64,000 nucleotides of DNA from positions 1,054,001 to 1,118,000 of the forward strand of contig NZ_CP132719.1 of NCBI RefSeq assembly GCF_030845995.1, in the 5' to 3' direction. Below are positions 17,334 through 23,935 of this stretch, in pieces. The translations under genes were made by a program, and so were the position numbers. The stretch is from Geothrix sp. 21YS21S-4. Lineage in GTDB: Bacteria > Acidobacteriota > Holophagae > Holophagales > Holophagaceae. The notes under the pieces were generated by a model. That model was not told the DNA's origin. It saw nothing but the letters and a program-made list of their open reading frames with translations, and searched no databases. Position 1 is the stretch's first letter, and every line of letters begins with the position of its first letter.

Positions 17334-18074
17334 TCAAATGCCTTGGCACAGCCGGTCGGCAAGACTTGGATGCATCCCGACGGCCAAAATGGCCCGGGCC
17401 GCGCCGTCCACGTCGTACTCCAGGCGATGCAAGCGGATGCGCCTGCGCCCGGGGTCGAAGGTCATGAAGGAGGCTCGGGGGTCCCGGTCCCGCGGCTGGC
17501 CCACGGAACCCGGGTTCACCAGGTAGCGGCAGTTCGGCTGGAGCTGGAACCACTCGCCCGGCTTGAGGGTGATCCAGTTGAGGCGGCCTTCGGTCTCGTC
17601 CAGCTCGAAGCAGCCCGCGACGTGGGTATGGCCGAAGAAGCACAGCGGGCCCTCGAAGGCGTCGAACGCCACGCCCACCTCCCGGATGTGAAGGAGGTAG
17701 GCATCCTCGTCCATGGGCGACCCGTGCGCGATCACGTAATCCCCCTCCACCTGGAGAGGTCCCACCGGCAGGCTCGCCAGGAAGCGCCAGTTGTCGCGCC
17801 GCAGCTTCTCCTGGGTCCATTCCGCGGATTCCCGGGCGGCCTGGTTGAAGCTGGAATCCGCCGCCAGCCCGGCGCAGACCTTGTCGTGGTTCCCCCGCAC
17901 CAGGAAGCAGGGGCGCAGGTCCCGCACCTTCTCCAGCACCTGGTTGGGATGGGCGCCGTAGCCCACGAGGTCGCCCAGCACGGCGAAGCGCCGGATGGAG
18001 CGGCGCTTCGCGAACCGCAACACGGCGCGGAGGGCGTGCAGGTTGGCGTGCAGATCGGAAAGGATCAGGTCCAC
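17334..18074 (-). CDS. Calcineurin-like metallophosphoesterase
   Basis: 246 residues from a GTG start. All metal-binding motifs of the family are visible in order: SDLHANLHAL (DxH), LGDLVGYG (GDxxxxG), GNHD, AHGSP and GHTHV. It resembles the YfcE/MJ0936-type stand-alone phosphodiesterases with two metal ions; the natural substrate is not predictable. The invariant NPGSVGQPRD near the C-terminus is typical of that subgroup. It lies 20 bases downstream of the ThiE-AroK gene and 14 upstream of the PilZ gene. Confidence 0.9.
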   Translation of the reverse strand: MDLILSDLHANLHALRAVLRFAKRRSIRRFAVLGDLVGYGAHPNQVLEKVRDLRPCFLVRGNHDKVCAGLAADSSFNQAARESAEWTQEKLRRDNWRFLASLPVGPLQVEGDYVIAHGSPMDEDAYLLHIREVGVAFDAFEGPLCFFGHTHVAGCFELDETEGRLNWITLKPGEWFQLQPNCRYLVNPGSVGQPRDRDPRASFMTFDPGRRRIRLHRLEYDVDGAARAILAVGMHPSLADRLCQGI

Positions 18075-18094: not shown

Positions 18095-19240
18095 TCAGTC
18101 TAGCAAAGCCGAAGCCAACTGCTCAGCGCTCCGGCCGAAGGGGAGGATCATCGGCGCCAGGGACCAGGCGGGCACCCGAGCCGCCCAGCGCTGCAGGAAG
18201 ACCGTCCGATCCTGGGCCAAGGGGCGCCGCGGATCTCCCGCCACCCGCGCCCAGGCCCGCAGGGGCGGTTCGGCCAGCCACAGGGGCGAAGCTCCGGCCG
18301 CCGCCACGGCGGCGCGGTTGGCCGGGGACTCCCAGGCGCCGCCCCCCAGGGCCACTACCGCCGGCGCCTCAAGAAGGCCGGGGAGGAGGGCCGATTCGAG
18401 GGCACGGAAGGCGCCTTCCCCCGAGGCGGCGAACACCTCGGCGACGCTGCGGTTCTCCCGGGTTTCGATGGCGGCGTCCAGGTCGTGGAAGGGCAGGCCC
18501 AGCCCCCGCGCCAGCTCGCGCCCCAGGGAGGTCTTGCCCGCGCCGCTGCCCCCGATGAGGACCACCGGCCGGTCGCGCCGGAACGGGGGCCGGATCCGCC
18601 AGCGCTGCCGCTGGACCTCCCAGCCCAGCGCGGCCGGATCCTCCGCGTCATGGACGGCCCCGACCATGGCCACGGATTCGGCTCCCGCCTCGAAGCAGGC
18701 CGCGACATCCTCCACCCGAAGGCCCCCGATGGCGACGGGCGCCAGCCCCCGGGCACGCAGGGTCGCGCAGCCCGCCCGCAGCCCTTCGAGGCCCACGGGC
18801 GCCGCGTGATCGGCCTTGGTGGCGGTGCCCCGGAAGGGCCCCACCCCGGCGTGGTCGCAGGCGGGATCGACCGCCGCCCATTCGGCGAGGTCGTGGGTGG
18901 AGGCCCCAATGTGGCAGACCTCCAGCCCCGGCAGACGCGCCGCCTCCGACGCGGGCAGGTCCCCCTGGCCCAGGTGAAGCCCCCACGGGGTGAGTCCCTC
19001 CCGGGAGGCGAGGAGGGCAAGATCGGCCCTGTCATTGACGCAAATCCACGGCCATCCGCCATTTGCGGTGGACTCCTCCAGGGCCCTTCTCAGCTCGGAC
19101 CACTGGGCCTGGATTTCCAGTGGCTTTCCCCGGAACTGCACCAGAGGAAAACCCGCTTCGCCCAACCGTCGGACCTGGTCGGAAAGGGGCTCCGCCCGGG
19201 TGGCGTCGGTGATGGGGTAGAGGGGGGGCAGGTGGAGCAT
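18095..19240 (-). CDS. Fusion of thiamine-phosphate synthase (ThiE-like) and shikimate kinase (AroK-like)
   Basis: 381 residues in one uninterrupted frame. Residues 1-215 form a ThiE/TenI-type barrel: LVQFRGK, CVNDRADLAL, GLHLGQGDLP, IGASTHDLAEW, VGPFRGTATK, PVAIGGL and SVAMVGAV. Residues about 222-381 are shikimate kinase: P-loop GGSGAGKT (230-237), DLD (253-255), GEGAFRALE with the substrate arginine, GGG (299-301), and RRPL in the lid. ThiE joins the thiamine pyrimidine and thiazole; AroK phosphorylates shikimate. The two pathways are unrelated, so the fusion is odd. aroB lies 3.6 kb away on the other strand. The ThiE half could instead be a TenI-like isomerase. No TPP riboswitch is visible upstream. 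Confidence 0.85.
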   Translation of the reverse strand: MLHLPPLYPITDATRAEPLSDQVRRLGEAGFPLVQFRGKPLEIQAQWSELRRALEESTANGGWPWICVNDRADLALLASREGLTPWGLHLGQGDLPASEAARLPGLEVCHIGASTHDLAEWAAVDPACDHAGVGPFRGTATKADHAAPVGLEGLRAGCATLRARGLAPVAIGGLRVEDVAACFEAGAESVAMVGAVHDAEDPAALGWEVQRQRWRIRPPFRRDRPVVLIGGSGAGKTSLGRELARGLGLPFHDLDAAIETRENRSVAEVFAASGEGAFRALESALLPGLLEAPAVVALGGGAWESPANRAAVAAAGASPLWLAEPPLRAWARVAGDPRRPLAQDRTVFLQRWAARVPAWSLAPMILPFGRSAEQLASALLD

Positions 19241-19272: not shown

Positions 19273-21060
19273 TCAGGCGGCTTCCCCATCGGCGAACTGC
19301 AGCCGCACCAGCTTGGCGTAGACGCCGTCCTGGGCGACGAGGCCGTCGTGGGTCCCGCGCTCCACGAGGCTGCCCTGGTCCATGACCCAGATCTCGTCGG
19401 CGTCCCGGATGGTGGACAGGCGGTGGGCGATGGTGAAGGTGGTCAGCCGGTGACTCACCCGCTCGATGACGGTCTGGATCTGGGACTCCGTTTCCGAGTC
19501 GATGTTGGCGGTGGCCTCGTCCAGCAGCAGGATGGCGGGCTCCAGGTAGAGCATCCGGGCGAAGGCCAGGAGCTGGCGCTCGCCGGCGCTGAGCTTCTGG
19601 CCGCGCTCGCCCACGGGCGTCTCCAGTCCCTGGGGCAGGCGCTCGACCAGCCCCTTCAGCTGGCTCTGCTCCAGGACCGAGGCCAGCCGGGCCTCATCCC
19701 GGGGGCGGTCCAGCAGGATGTTCTCCCGCAGGGTGCCGGAGAACACGAAGACGTCCTGGAGGACCAGGCCGAAGAGGCTCCGCAGGCCGCGGATCTGGAG
19801 GTCGCGCACGTCGACGCCGTCCACGGTGATCCGCCCGTCCCGCACGTCGTAGAACCGCATCAGGAGATTGATGAGGGTGCTCTTCCCGGCGCCGGTGTGG
19901 CCCACCACGGCGATGCGCCGCCCCTTGGGGATGACGCCGCTGAGGTCCCGCACCACCTGGCGGCCGCCCTCGCTGTAGGCGAAGGTCACGTTCTCGAAGC
20001 GGATCTCGTGCTCGAACGCGGCGGGCCGGGCATCCGGCGCCTCGGGGATCTCGTCGCGGTTGTCCAGCAGCCGGAAGATCCGTTCGCTGGAGGCCAGGGC
20101 GGTCTGCATCACGTTGTACCGCTCCGCCAGTTCGCGGATGGGCCGGAAGAAGCGGCCCGACTGCTGGATGAACGCCAGCAGCAGGCCCCAGGTGATGGCC
20201 CCCGCCTGGAGTTTGAAGCCCGCGTAGAAGATCAGCGCCGCAAGGGTCGCGGAAGTGATGAACTCCACCACGGGGAAGAACACGGCGTAGGCGAGGATGG
20301 TCCGCAGGAAAGCCTGGAAGTAGTCCTCGTTCAGCCCCCGGAACTGCCGGTCGCTGCGGCTCTCCTCCCCGTTGATCTGCACCAGGCTCATCCCGGAGAT
20401 CTGCTCCTGGAGGAAGGCGTTGATGGCGGCGTAGCGGCGCTGGGTCTCGCGGAAGGCCTCCCCCGCCCGGCGGCGGAAGACCTCCGTGGCCACCAGCAGG
20501 AAGGGCAGGATCCCCAGGGCGACCAGGGCCATGCCGGGATGGGTCCAGAACATCCACGCCACGATGGCCAGCAGGGAGAGGGCGTCCCCGACGATCGCCA
20601 CGAAACCCGACGCGAACATCTCGTTCAGGTTCTGCACGTCGCTGGTCACGCGGGTCATCAGCCGCCCCACGGGGTTGCGGTGGAAGAAGTCCGTGTTGCG
20701 GCCCATCAGGTGCTCGAACAGCTGGATGCGGAGCTGCAGCATGGCCTGCTGTCCCACCCGGGCCAGCAGGAAGTAGCGGGCCAGGCTGACCACCATCCCC
20801 GCGATGAGCACGCCGAAGAAGCCCGCCACCAGCGGCGCGGCGCCCCGCAGATTGCCCTGGCCCATGAACCGGTTGATGAGGCGGAGGGTCAGCTCCGAGG
20901 GCATCACCTCCAGGAAGGCGCCCAGGGCCATCAGGCCCAGCAGGGCCAGGAGGGAGGCCCACTGGGGCTTCAGGTAGCCCGCCAGGCGCCAGAGGAGCGC
21001 GTGGCGCACGGGCTGCTGGTCCACCCGGTCCGATTGGAAGAAGGCTTCCTGTTCCGACAT
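19273..21060 (-). CDS. ABC transporter, fused membrane and ATPase domains (MsbA/LmrA type)
   Basis: 595 residues. An exporter-type six-helix membrane domain (about 25-330) is followed by a complete ATPase domain (about 350-580): Walker A GHTGAGKST, Q-loop LVLQDVF, signature LSAGERQ, Walker B ILLLDEATANID, and the switch histidine in IAHRLST. As a half-transporter it should work as a homodimer and export a lipid or drug. The membrane region fits the lipid-flippase and multidrug group, but substrate is not predictable. It ends 32 bases before the ThiE-AroK gene on the same strand. Confidence 0.92.
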   Translation of the reverse strand: MSEQEAFFQSDRVDQQPVRHALLWRLAGYLKPQWASLLALLGLMALGAFLEVMPSELTLRLINRFMGQGNLRGAAPLVAGFFGVLIAGMVVSLARYFLLARVGQQAMLQLRIQLFEHLMGRNTDFFHRNPVGRLMTRVTSDVQNLNEMFASGFVAIVGDALSLLAIVAWMFWTHPGMALVALGILPFLLVATEVFRRRAGEAFRETQRRYAAINAFLQEQISGMSLVQINGEESRSDRQFRGLNEDYFQAFLRTILAYAVFFPVVEFITSATLAALIFYAGFKLQAGAITWGLLLAFIQQSGRFFRPIRELAERYNVMQTALASSERIFRLLDNRDEIPEAPDARPAAFEHEIRFENVTFAYSEGGRQVVRDLSGVIPKGRRIAVVGHTGAGKSTLINLLMRFYDVRDGRITVDGVDVRDLQIRGLRSLFGLVLQDVFVFSGTLRENILLDRPRDEARLASVLEQSQLKGLVERLPQGLETPVGERGQKLSAGERQLLAFARMLYLEPAILLLDEATANIDSETESQIQTVIERVSHRLTTFTIAHRLSTIRDADEIWVMDQGSLVERGTHDGLVAQDGVYAKLVRLQFADGEAA

Positions 21061-21128: not shown

Positions 21129-22874
21129 ATGGCCCCCTGGATTCCCGTTCTGCTTGCCGCTTCCTTCCTGGCGGGCGCCCCCGTGGCCCAGGAGAGCGCG
21201 GCGGCGGCCCGGATGCGCCGGGACGTGGCCTTCCTGGCGTCGCCGGAACTGAAGGGCCGGGGCAACGGCTATCCCGAGCTGGATCGCGCGGCGGACCGCA
21301 TCGCCGGCGAGTGGAAGAAGCTCGGATTGAAGGCCGAGATCCAGCGGTTCCCCTTCATCGCCCGGATCGTGCGCGAGCAGCAGGAAGCGGTGGTGGCCGC
21401 CGGGAACGAGCGCCGCACGCTGGTCTGGGGCCGCGACGTGGAGGCCCTGGGACTGAGCGCCGACGCGGATTTCGGCGCCGCCCCGCTGGTCTTCGCGGGG
21501 TACGGCGTGCAGATCCCTGGGGGCTATGACGATCTGGCGGGCCTGGATCTGAAGGGCCGCGTGGTCGTGATCTCCCGGGCGGTTCCGGATCTGGATGCCT
21601 TCGCGCACCTGCCCCGCGGCGAGCGGAGCCTGCTGGTGCGCCTCAAGCGGCTGGAAGCCGCCCAGGCCGCGGCGGTGCTCGTTCTGGAAGACGGCGGACC
21701 TCGGCCCCTCCAGCGGGAGGAAGGCCCGGTGAAGGGGGGCATTCCTGCGCTCGGCATCACGCCCGAGGCCCTGGGAACAGCCTGCGGCGACCTGTCGGCC
21801 CGCTTCCGGACGATGCGCGAGACGGGCCGCCCCTCGGCGCCGGAGGCCTCTTCCGCGTCCTTCTCGCTCAAGCTGAAGCTGCGGCGCGAGGAGGCGCCGG
21901 TTCCCAACGTGGTGGCCGTGATCCCGGGCCGGGATCCGAAGCTGCGGAAGGAATACGTCGTCCTCGGCGCCCACCTGGATCACCTGGGATTGGGCGAGCG
22001 CCACAGCATGGGCGGGGCCGAAGCCCGGGGCCAGGTGCATCCCGGCGCCGACGACAACGCGTCCGGCACGGCCCTGGTGGTGGAACTGGGCCGGGAACTG
22101 AAGAAGACCCGGCCGCGGCGCTCCATCCTGCTGATGCATTTCGGCGGCGAGGAGGAGGGCCTGCTGGGTTCCGCCCACTGGGTGCGGAATCCCACCCACC
22201 CGCTGGAGTCCGTCAAGTTCATGCTCAATTTCGACATGGTGGGCCGGCTGGATCCGAAGGCGCCCAAGCTGATGATGGGCGGCCTGGGCGCCTCTCCCGC
22301 GGCGACGGAGGCCGCGAAGAAGCTCGCGCCCCGGGGACTTTCCGTCACGCCCGAGCTGGGCGCGGCGGTGGGAGGCTCCGACCACATGAGCTTCTCCCAG
22401 GCGAAGATCCCCACGTTCTTCTTCTTCACCGGCCTCCACGGCGACTACCACCGACCGACGGACACCGCCGACCGCATCAACTTCGAAGGCATGGCCCAGG
22501 TGGCGGCCTTCGGCAAGGCGGTGGCCCTCGACCTCGCCAACGCGGACGCCATCCCGGCCTTCGATCCGGAGACCGCCAAGCTCCCCGCCCGGGGCGACGG
22601 CGGGCCCATGCGGATCGCCTTCGGCACCATCCCCGACTACGCGGACCATCCCAAGGGCTTCCGGATCAACGGCGTGTCCAAGGGCTCCACCGCCGAAGCC
22701 ATCGGCCTCCAGGCGGGCGACGTCCTCATAGCTTTCGGGGACCAGCCCATCCGCACGATCTACGACTTCATGGCCGCCCTCGGCGCCCACAAGCCTGGCG
22801 ACAAAGCGATGATCCGCTGGCTGCGCGAGGACCGGCCCATGGAAGCGGAAGCCACTCTGAAAGGCCGACCATGA
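21129..22874 (+). CDS. Secreted M28-family zinc aminopeptidase with PA and C-terminal PDZ domains
   Basis: 581 residues from ATG 21129, with a signal peptide (IPVLLAASFLAGAPVAQ). A protease-associated insert (about 110-230) is followed by the M28 core with metal ligands visible: GAHLDHLG (His), GADDNASG (Asp), GGEEEGLLGS (catalytic Glu and ligand), FDMVGR (Asp) and GGSDHMSF (His). A PDZ domain (about 490-575, KGSTAEAIGLQAGDVL) ends the chain. A periplasmic or extracellular peptidase. Its stop codon overlaps the aroB start by 4 bases (ATGA). TACAGT lies 19 bases before the start and may be a -10. Confidence 0.9.
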   Translation: MAPWIPVLLAASFLAGAPVAQESAAAARMRRDVAFLASPELKGRGNGYPELDRAADRIAGEWKKLGLKAEIQRFPFIARIVREQQEAVVAAGNERRTLVWGRDVEALGLSADADFGAAPLVFAGYGVQIPGGYDDLAGLDLKGRVVVISRAVPDLDAFAHLPRGERSLLVRLKRLEAAQAAAVLVLEDGGPRPLQREEGPVKGGIPALGITPEALGTACGDLSARFRTMRETGRPSAPEASSASFSLKLKLRREEAPVPNVVAVIPGRDPKLRKEYVVLGAHLDHLGLGERHSMGGAEARGQVHPGADDNASGTALVVELGRELKKTRPRRSILLMHFGGEEEGLLGSAHWVRNPTHPLESVKFMLNFDMVGRLDPKAPKLMMGGLGASPAATEAAKKLAPRGLSVTPELGAAVGGSDHMSFSQAKIPTFFFFTGLHGDYHRPTDTADRINFEGMAQVAAFGKAVALDLANADAIPAFDPETAKLPARGDGGPMRIAFGTIPDYADHPKGFRINGVSKGSTAEAIGLQAGDVLIAFGDQPIRTIYDFMAALGAHKPGDKAMIRWLREDRPMEAEATLKGRP

Positions 22875-23935
22875 GACTCGCCACGCCCCCGGGTTTCGCC
22901 ACCGAAGTGTTCCTCCTGGAAGCTCCCGATCCGAGCCTGCTGCCGGAAGGCCCCTGGACCCTCGTGGGCGACCAGCGCCTCCGCGAGGCATGGATCGAAG
23001 GGGGGCTGCCGGAACCCTCCGACGCGCTGTGGATCTCGGTGTCGGAGGAGGAGAAGAAGCTGCGCACGGTCATCCCCTGGCTGGAGCACTGGGCCCGGAT
23101 CCCGCTCCACCGCGATGCCACCGTGGTGGCGCTGGGGGGTGGCGTGCTGTCGGATCTCGCGGGCCTCGCGGCCGCCCTCTACCTTCGCGGGATCGCCTGG
23201 CAGGTGTGGCCCACGACCCTGCTCGGGATGGTGGACGCGGCCCTGGGCGGCAAGACTGGCGCGGATCTGGCCGCCGGGAAGAACCTCGTGGGCGCCTTCC
23301 ATGCGCCCAAGCGCCTGGTGGCCTGCACCGGCTTCCTGCGGACGCTTCCCGAGCGCCACATGGAGAACGGGCGCTGGGAGCTGGTGAAGACGGCCATCCT
23401 CCAGGGCGAGTTGGGCTGGGCGACGGAGATCCTGCAAACGGGACCCGTGCGGACTGGCTGGATCGAGCGCGCACTCGCCTACAAGGCGGGCGTGGTCCAC
23501 CGGGATCCCCGCGAGGCCGGAGAGCGGCGCCTGCTGAACCTCGGCCACACCCTGGGCCACGCTCTGGAAGCCGCTTCCGGCTACCAGCTGCTTCACGGCG
23601 AGGCCGTGGGACTCGGCCTCCTGGCCTCCTGCCTGCTGGGCGAGGAGCAGGGCTTGAAGCCCTTCCCGGCGGAGCTGCTGGACGCCCTCGCCCGGCGCCT
23701 GGCGCCCCTCGCGCCCCTGGTCGCGCCGTGGCAGGCCTGCCTGCCGCTGCTCCACCGCGACAAGAAGGCCCGCCACGCCCCCGGCCACACCGAGGACGCG
23801 CCCGTCACCGAGATCCACTGCATCCTGCCGCGCCCGGGCGAATCCGCCATCCAGCGGGTCCTGGCGCCCCGGGTTTGGGAAGCTCCCCACGCCCGTCTCG
23901 TCGACCTCCTCGACCGCGAGGCCACCCGTGCCTGA
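22871..23935 (+). CDS. aroB: 3-dehydroquinate synthase
   Basis: 354 residues. Converts DAHP to 3-dehydroquinate, the second step of the shikimate pathway, using NAD and zinc or cobalt. Motifs: VALGGGVLSDLAG, TTLLGMVDAALGGKTG, NLVGAFHAP, ELVKTAIL (E and K of the metal/substrate site), LNLGHTLGHALE and HGEAVGLG with metal ligands, and RDKK. Its start overlaps the M28 peptidase gene (ATGA) and its end overlaps the TPR gene by 8 bases, so these unrelated genes are translationally linked. The next-but-one pathway kinase is the fused AroK at 18.1-19.2 kb. Confidence 0.94.
   Translation: MRLATPPGFATEVFLLEAPDPSLLPEGPWTLVGDQRLREAWIEGGLPEPSDALWISVSEEEKKLRTVIPWLEHWARIPLHRDATVVALGGGVLSDLAGLAAALYLRGIAWQVWPTTLLGMVDAALGGKTGADLAAGKNLVGAFHAPKRLVACTGFLRTLPERHMENGRWELVKTAILQGELGWATEILQTGPVRTGWIERALAYKAGVVHRDPREAGERRLLNLGHTLGHALEAASGYQLLHGEAVGLGLLASCLLGEEQGLKPFPAELLDALARRLAPLAPLVAPWQACLPLLHRDKKARHAPGHTEDAPVTEIHCILPRPGESAIQRVLAPRVWEAPHARLVDLLDREATRA

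Follow-up and report, generated by a model that had tools for sequence, protein, structure and literature searches.

Thiamine-phosphate synthase (ThiE) and shikimate kinase (SK, AroK) are each known both as stand-alone enzymes and as parts of larger ones. A ThiE barrel is combined with another enzyme domain in the ThiD-ThiE proteins, in the yeast protein THI6 (ThiE plus thiazole kinase, 3NL6), and in the Nudix-ThiE proteins (PRK08999). Similarly, an SK domain is combined with another enzyme domain in the AroK-AroB proteins (PRK13951 and PRK14021), in the pentafunctional AROM protein, and in the AroE-AroK proteins of a sister family of the one studied here (family f2). In ThiD-ThiE and THI6, the partner acts in thiamine metabolism, and in AroK-AroB, AROM, and AroE-AroK, the partners are shikimate-pathway enzymes. 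In contrast, a gene of Geothrix sp. 21YS21S-4 joins a ThiE barrel to an AroK domain, i.e., to a partner from an unrelated pathway, and, seen from the other side, joins an SK to an enzyme outside the shikimate pathway. The combination of domains is new, whereas the enzymes are known and no new activity is involved. We found no description of a ThiE-AroK fusion in the open-access papers that were searched.

Compared with the ThiE proteins of B. subtilis (1G4T/2TPS) and P. furiosus (1XI3), the barrel of the fusion has the same fold (Z 23–25) and the same active-site segments, but it is only about 26–28% identical and is followed by the additional C-terminal SK domain. Compared with the AroK proteins of M. 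tuberculosis (2IYQ/1U8A) and E. coli (1KAG), the kinase half has the same fold (Z 21–23) and shares the P-loop, the DxD, FR, GGG, and RPL motifs, and the C-terminal arginine. It differs in the added N-terminal ThiE barrel and in the diverged sequence of its C-terminal third: the PF01202 match covers only positions 2–116 of the 159 in the profile, which makes the C-terminus of the kinase atypical in sequence, although its fold is not.

Domains and surroundings of the fusion gene

The features of the window, which is the whole stretch of 64 kb that was analyzed, are summarized in Table 1. The earlier note on this DNA had proposed that ThiE and AroK are fused in one frame, and this was confirmed by the 381-residue frame, the Pfam domains, the motifs found by alignment, and the conservation of the gene in the family.

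Table 1. Positions of the fusion gene, its parts, and its neighbors in the window.
Feature	Position	Strand	Evidence or remark
ThiE-AroK fusion gene, 381 aa	18095..19240	-	One open frame from the ATG at 19240 to the stop at 18095, with no frameshift or internal stop
ThiE (thiamine-phosphate synthase) TIM barrel, residues 1–205	18626..19240	-	PF02581, fold matches, catalytic residues
Junction helix, residues 202–216, from the last helix of the barrel to the kinase domain	18593..18637	-	AlphaFold2, pLDDT 94–96
Shikimate kinase (AroK) domain, residues 223–381	18098..18574	-	PF01202; fold match over residues 221–381
Calcineurin-like metallophosphoesterase gene	17334..18074	-	PF12850; conserved downstream of thiE-aroK in fused and unfused lineages
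ABC transporter gene (membrane + ATPase)	19273..21060	-	32 bases upstream of the fusion start
aroB, 3-dehydroquinate synthase	22871..23935	+	PF01761 / PF24621

In the barrel, PF02581 (TMP-TENI) matched residues 7–196 over the full profile (1–180; E-value 3.7e-30, 105 bits against a cut-off of 27). The barrel residues, numbered as in the 381-residue protein, were checked against 1G4T and across the aligned family sequences. The ThiE segments were Q35-R37-K39, N69-D70, HLGQxD (H89 and D94), S114-T115-H116, T139-x-T141-K142, and G172-G173, and the barrel keeps all residues that serve in catalysis or ligand binding in B. subtilis ThiE (QxRxK, ND, HxGQxD, S, TxTK, and GG). In the kinase, PF01202 (SKI) matched residues 233–347 (1.9e-28, 100 bits against a cut-off of 22.1), and the motifs were the P-loop at 230–237, D253/D255, R279 (FR), GGG at 299–301, R339 (RPL), and the C-terminal R355. 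We take the residues listed for both halves to have the roles that general knowledge of the two enzymes assigns to them. In 60 aligned fused sequences, the checked SK residues were all kept except for one conservative change, D253E; the middle G of GGG, which was outside this check, is A in some members.

Neither half reached an NCBIfam equivalog cut-off: the score was 102.4 against 145.1 bits for TIGR00693 (ThiE), and the best of the shikimate kinase models was NF010552, with 101 against 186 bits. Judged by these scores, both halves are divergent members of the ThiE and shikimate kinase families, a cut-off being a score threshold and not a biochemical feature.

The AlphaFold2 model of the fusion, for which ten family sequences were used, is a compact two-domain structure (mean pLDDT 92.5, pTM 0.91). 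Residues 1–219 aligned to ThiE structures (1XI3, Z 25.0; B. subtilis ThiE, Z 23). Residues 221–381 aligned to 4Y0A (Z 22.9, 160 residues, rmsd 1.7) and to another shikimate kinase (Z 22.6), and the kinase fold in the model is complete, including its C-terminus. When PDB entries were ranked by their likeness to the barrel, ThiE chains came first (Z 25.0–23) and TenI followed at 21.0; the fold alone does not separate the two enzymes, but the residues of the barrel favor ThiE. THI6 also appeared among the Foldseek matches, but we rejected it as a two-domain likeness, because the rmsd over both domains was 12–20 Å, and only the ThiE barrel is shared.

An ABC-transporter-type gene also adjoins the fusion in two other genomes (G001 and G065). 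The earlier note had pointed to aroB as a local representative of the aromatic pathway. The gene is indeed 3.6 kb away on the opposite strand, but its proximity carries little weight, as the conserved partner of the fusion is the metallophosphoesterase gene. No Rfam family, including the TPP riboswitch, matched anywhere in the window at the gathering threshold, and riboswitch control of the fusion was therefore rejected.

Distribution of the fusion and the accompanying thiamine and shikimate genes

In a search of relatives for the two-domain architecture, the fusion was found at full length and in a single frame in 67 of the 77 Holophagaceae/Geothrix genomes, which represent 11 genera (manual count). 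The remaining genomes mostly had partial matches on contig fragments, and the one family genome without a match is 77% complete. Because the frame is full-length in so many genomes of the family, the fusion is real and not a sequencing accident; a frameshift or two separate genes, which the earlier note had considered, is ruled out. The fusion is also kept in family genomes of only 0.9–1.2 Mb, which keep ThiC and ThiG as well. Elsewhere in the phylum, full-length fusions were found in families f67, f78, f54, and f34. Among the best 80 GTDB loci listed, with flanks of ≤ 6 kb and a ThiE-biased search pattern, ThiE and SK did not occur together beyond the Holophagaceae loci; given the bias of the pattern, the fusion may occur more widely. 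Fusions of ThiE or SK to other partners were observed nearby in the phylogeny: family f2 has AroE-AroK (shikimate dehydrogenase plus SK; L052 709–1971 and L053 673–1971 by Pfam, and L055 by sequence), and one genome of the same class (G250) has ThiD-ThiE (L066 622–2073).

The genome of Geothrix sp. 21YS21S-4, a single 3.08-Mb contig with a completeness rating of 100%, was searched with profiles for ThiE and SK. The fusion is its only shikimate kinase, and the fused barrel is its only ThiE with catalytic residues. The sole other TMP-TENI match is a degenerate protein of 183 aa at genome position 282523 (L002 1450–1998), which lacks the lysine of QxRxK, the ND pair, and the HxGQxD motif. Concerning the separate thiE and aroK genes that the earlier note had weighed against the fusion, the genome has no stand-alone AroK, and its other ThiE-like protein is without the catalytic residues. 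Weak TMP-TENI matches resembling the degenerate protein were seen in most of Holophagaceae. The Geothrix genome also encodes ThiC, ThiG, and a divergent ThiD (scoring below the cut-off of TIGR00097 but above that of PF08543). A ThiE is therefore required for TMP synthesis, and the fused barrel is the one expected to provide it. One SK per genome was found in 25 of the 26 genomes checked. Some Holophagaceae genera have a second, canonical ThiE beside thiM (hydroxyethylthiazole kinase; L061 and L062), and this is likely to be a salvage pair.

Function of the two halves and decay of the barrel

On the sequence evidence, we consider it highly probable that the gene encodes a bifunctional enzyme, comprising a ThiE and the only SK of the cell with two independent sites, and that it was formed from merged neighbors. 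The N-terminal barrel would be the thiamine-phosphate synthase of the cell, converting HMP-PP and thiazole phosphate to TMP and PPi, and the C-terminal domain would be its sole shikimate kinase, converting shikimate and ATP to shikimate-3-phosphate. Most likely, each active site works independently of the other, and there is neither a common intermediate nor channeling between them. After the joining, the kinase half would have been indispensable in every genome checked, whereas the barrel would have been selected as a ThiE until a lineage gained another ThiE or lost thiamine synthesis; from then on, the active site of the barrel would decay while its fold stayed attached.

Intact members usually conserve the barrel better than the kinase (72% against 53% identity to G050, and 68% against 48% to G071), which is what one would expect if the barrel works as an enzyme. 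In three lineages (G051, G072, and G369), however, catalytic residues of the barrel are lost, and those of SK are all kept. When G051 is compared with its sister G050, the barrel is 49% identical and the kinase is 74% identical; nine of the 14 checked barrel residues are lost but none of the kinase residues, and the genome has two further ThiE copies, which adjoin thiM and thiG, respectively. In G072, six of the 14 are lost, and this metagenome-assembled genome (89% complete) gave no match to ThiC and none to another ThiE. In G369, a barrel without QxRxK, ND, HxGxxD, and K is carried on an intact kinase, and most of its relatives in f34 have aroK without an upstream thiE. None of the 60 aligned sequences showed the reverse, a live barrel joined to a dead kinase. 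G061 gave no ThiC or ThiD matches, yet it keeps the barrel motifs covered by its fragment, and the link between barrel decay and pathway loss is therefore not strict.

The dead barrels that are still attached to intact kinases in these three lineages, together with the firm two-domain arrangement of the model and the helix at its junction, suggest that the barrel might serve as a structural or regulatory module for the folding, stability, or oligomer state of the kinase, besides or instead of TMP synthesis. We consider this unlikely, since ordinary members keep every checked catalytic residue and conserve the barrel more strongly than the kinase, which a scaffold would not need. It may simply be that there has not yet been time for the dead barrels to be deleted, and most f34 relatives of G369 have kinases without an upstream barrel. 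In a stronger form, the barrel would be an obligate non-catalytic partner of SK, either a scaffold or a ligand-sensing regulator, such that a dead thiamine enzyme was kept in several lineages only to run an enzyme of the aromatic pathway; we regard this as quite improbable.

Probable origin from neighboring genes

In the sample of unfused acidobacterial relatives, thiE and aroK are either side by side in the same orientation or have one gene between them, and in six unfused loci they overlap by 4 bases. The metallophosphoesterase gene is located downstream of thiE-aroK in nearly all sampled unfused loci. In one genome (G143), a TGA stands between thiE and aroK, which are in frame with each other. 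The earlier note had offered two explanations for the fusion, namely that the two genes were once neighbors or that the barrel has taken on a new role. The former is borne out by the conserved order thiE-aroK-metallophosphoesterase where the genes are unfused and by the TGA of G143, but the latter is not needed for the window protein, because its barrel has retained the catalytic residues and no other protein of the genome is a plausible ThiE; in the dead-barrel lineages, the barrel may have a new role. Most likely, the fusion arose by the merging of neighbors: thiE and aroK would already have lain next to each other in the same orientation, in many cases overlapping by 4 bases, and the loss of the separating stop or an in-frame indel would have merged them.

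In the SK tree, the Holophagaceae proteins form one clade, and a single clade of all fused proteins was rejected (p = 2e-5). A grouping of f1 with f54 was not rejected in this tree (p = 0.16), and one of f67/f78 with f34 was weakly rejected (p = 0.02). In the ThiE tree, neither a single clade of the fused barrels (p = 0.28) nor f1 with f54 was rejected. Because the SK tree rejects one fused clade and the genes are commonly neighbors when unfused, repeated merging is the simplest reading, and merging probably happened more than once. The results of the ThiE tree, and the grouping of f1 with f54 that neither tree rejects, would also fit a single ancient acidobacterial fusion that was later split in most lineages. 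However, this is opposed by the SK tree, by the frequency, in the class sampled around G330, of unfused neighbors with 4-base overlaps, and by the pre-fusion arrangement in G143, and it is a doubtful alternative, less likely than repeated merging.

The overlapping separate genes of unfused relatives, together with an ATG at residue 192 and a GTG at residue 226 of the window gene, could mean that the kinase is made as a second protein from an internal start and that the fusion frame is incidental. This is very improbable, as no clear ribosome-binding site was seen by eye in the 20 bases before the GTG, residue 226 is variable in the family alignment and a start there is not conserved, W207, Q210, and R213 just past the barrel are conserved in the family, and the frame is open across 11 genera. 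Finally, the same pair has been joined in more than one lineage, and tyrosine, which the shikimate pathway produces, is the source of the thiamine thiazole in organisms that use ThiH; a link between the two pathways by channeling of a substrate or product or by co-regulation is nevertheless hardly credible, given that the ThiE and SK reactions have no common substrate or product, that prior adjacency accounts for repeated fusion without a functional tie, and that the window is without a TPP riboswitch or any other Rfam family.

These results call for caution when functions are transferred: enzymes of unrelated pathways can fuse because their genes are neighbors, and “Rosetta stone” logic alone need not mean a functional link. 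The unfused neighbors, the intermediate with one stop codon, the several fused lineages, and the three decayed barrels form a natural series, with which one can examine the part that a fused domain plays after the cell has ceased to need its reaction. A single gene of these bacteria would carry two functions that are probably both essential.
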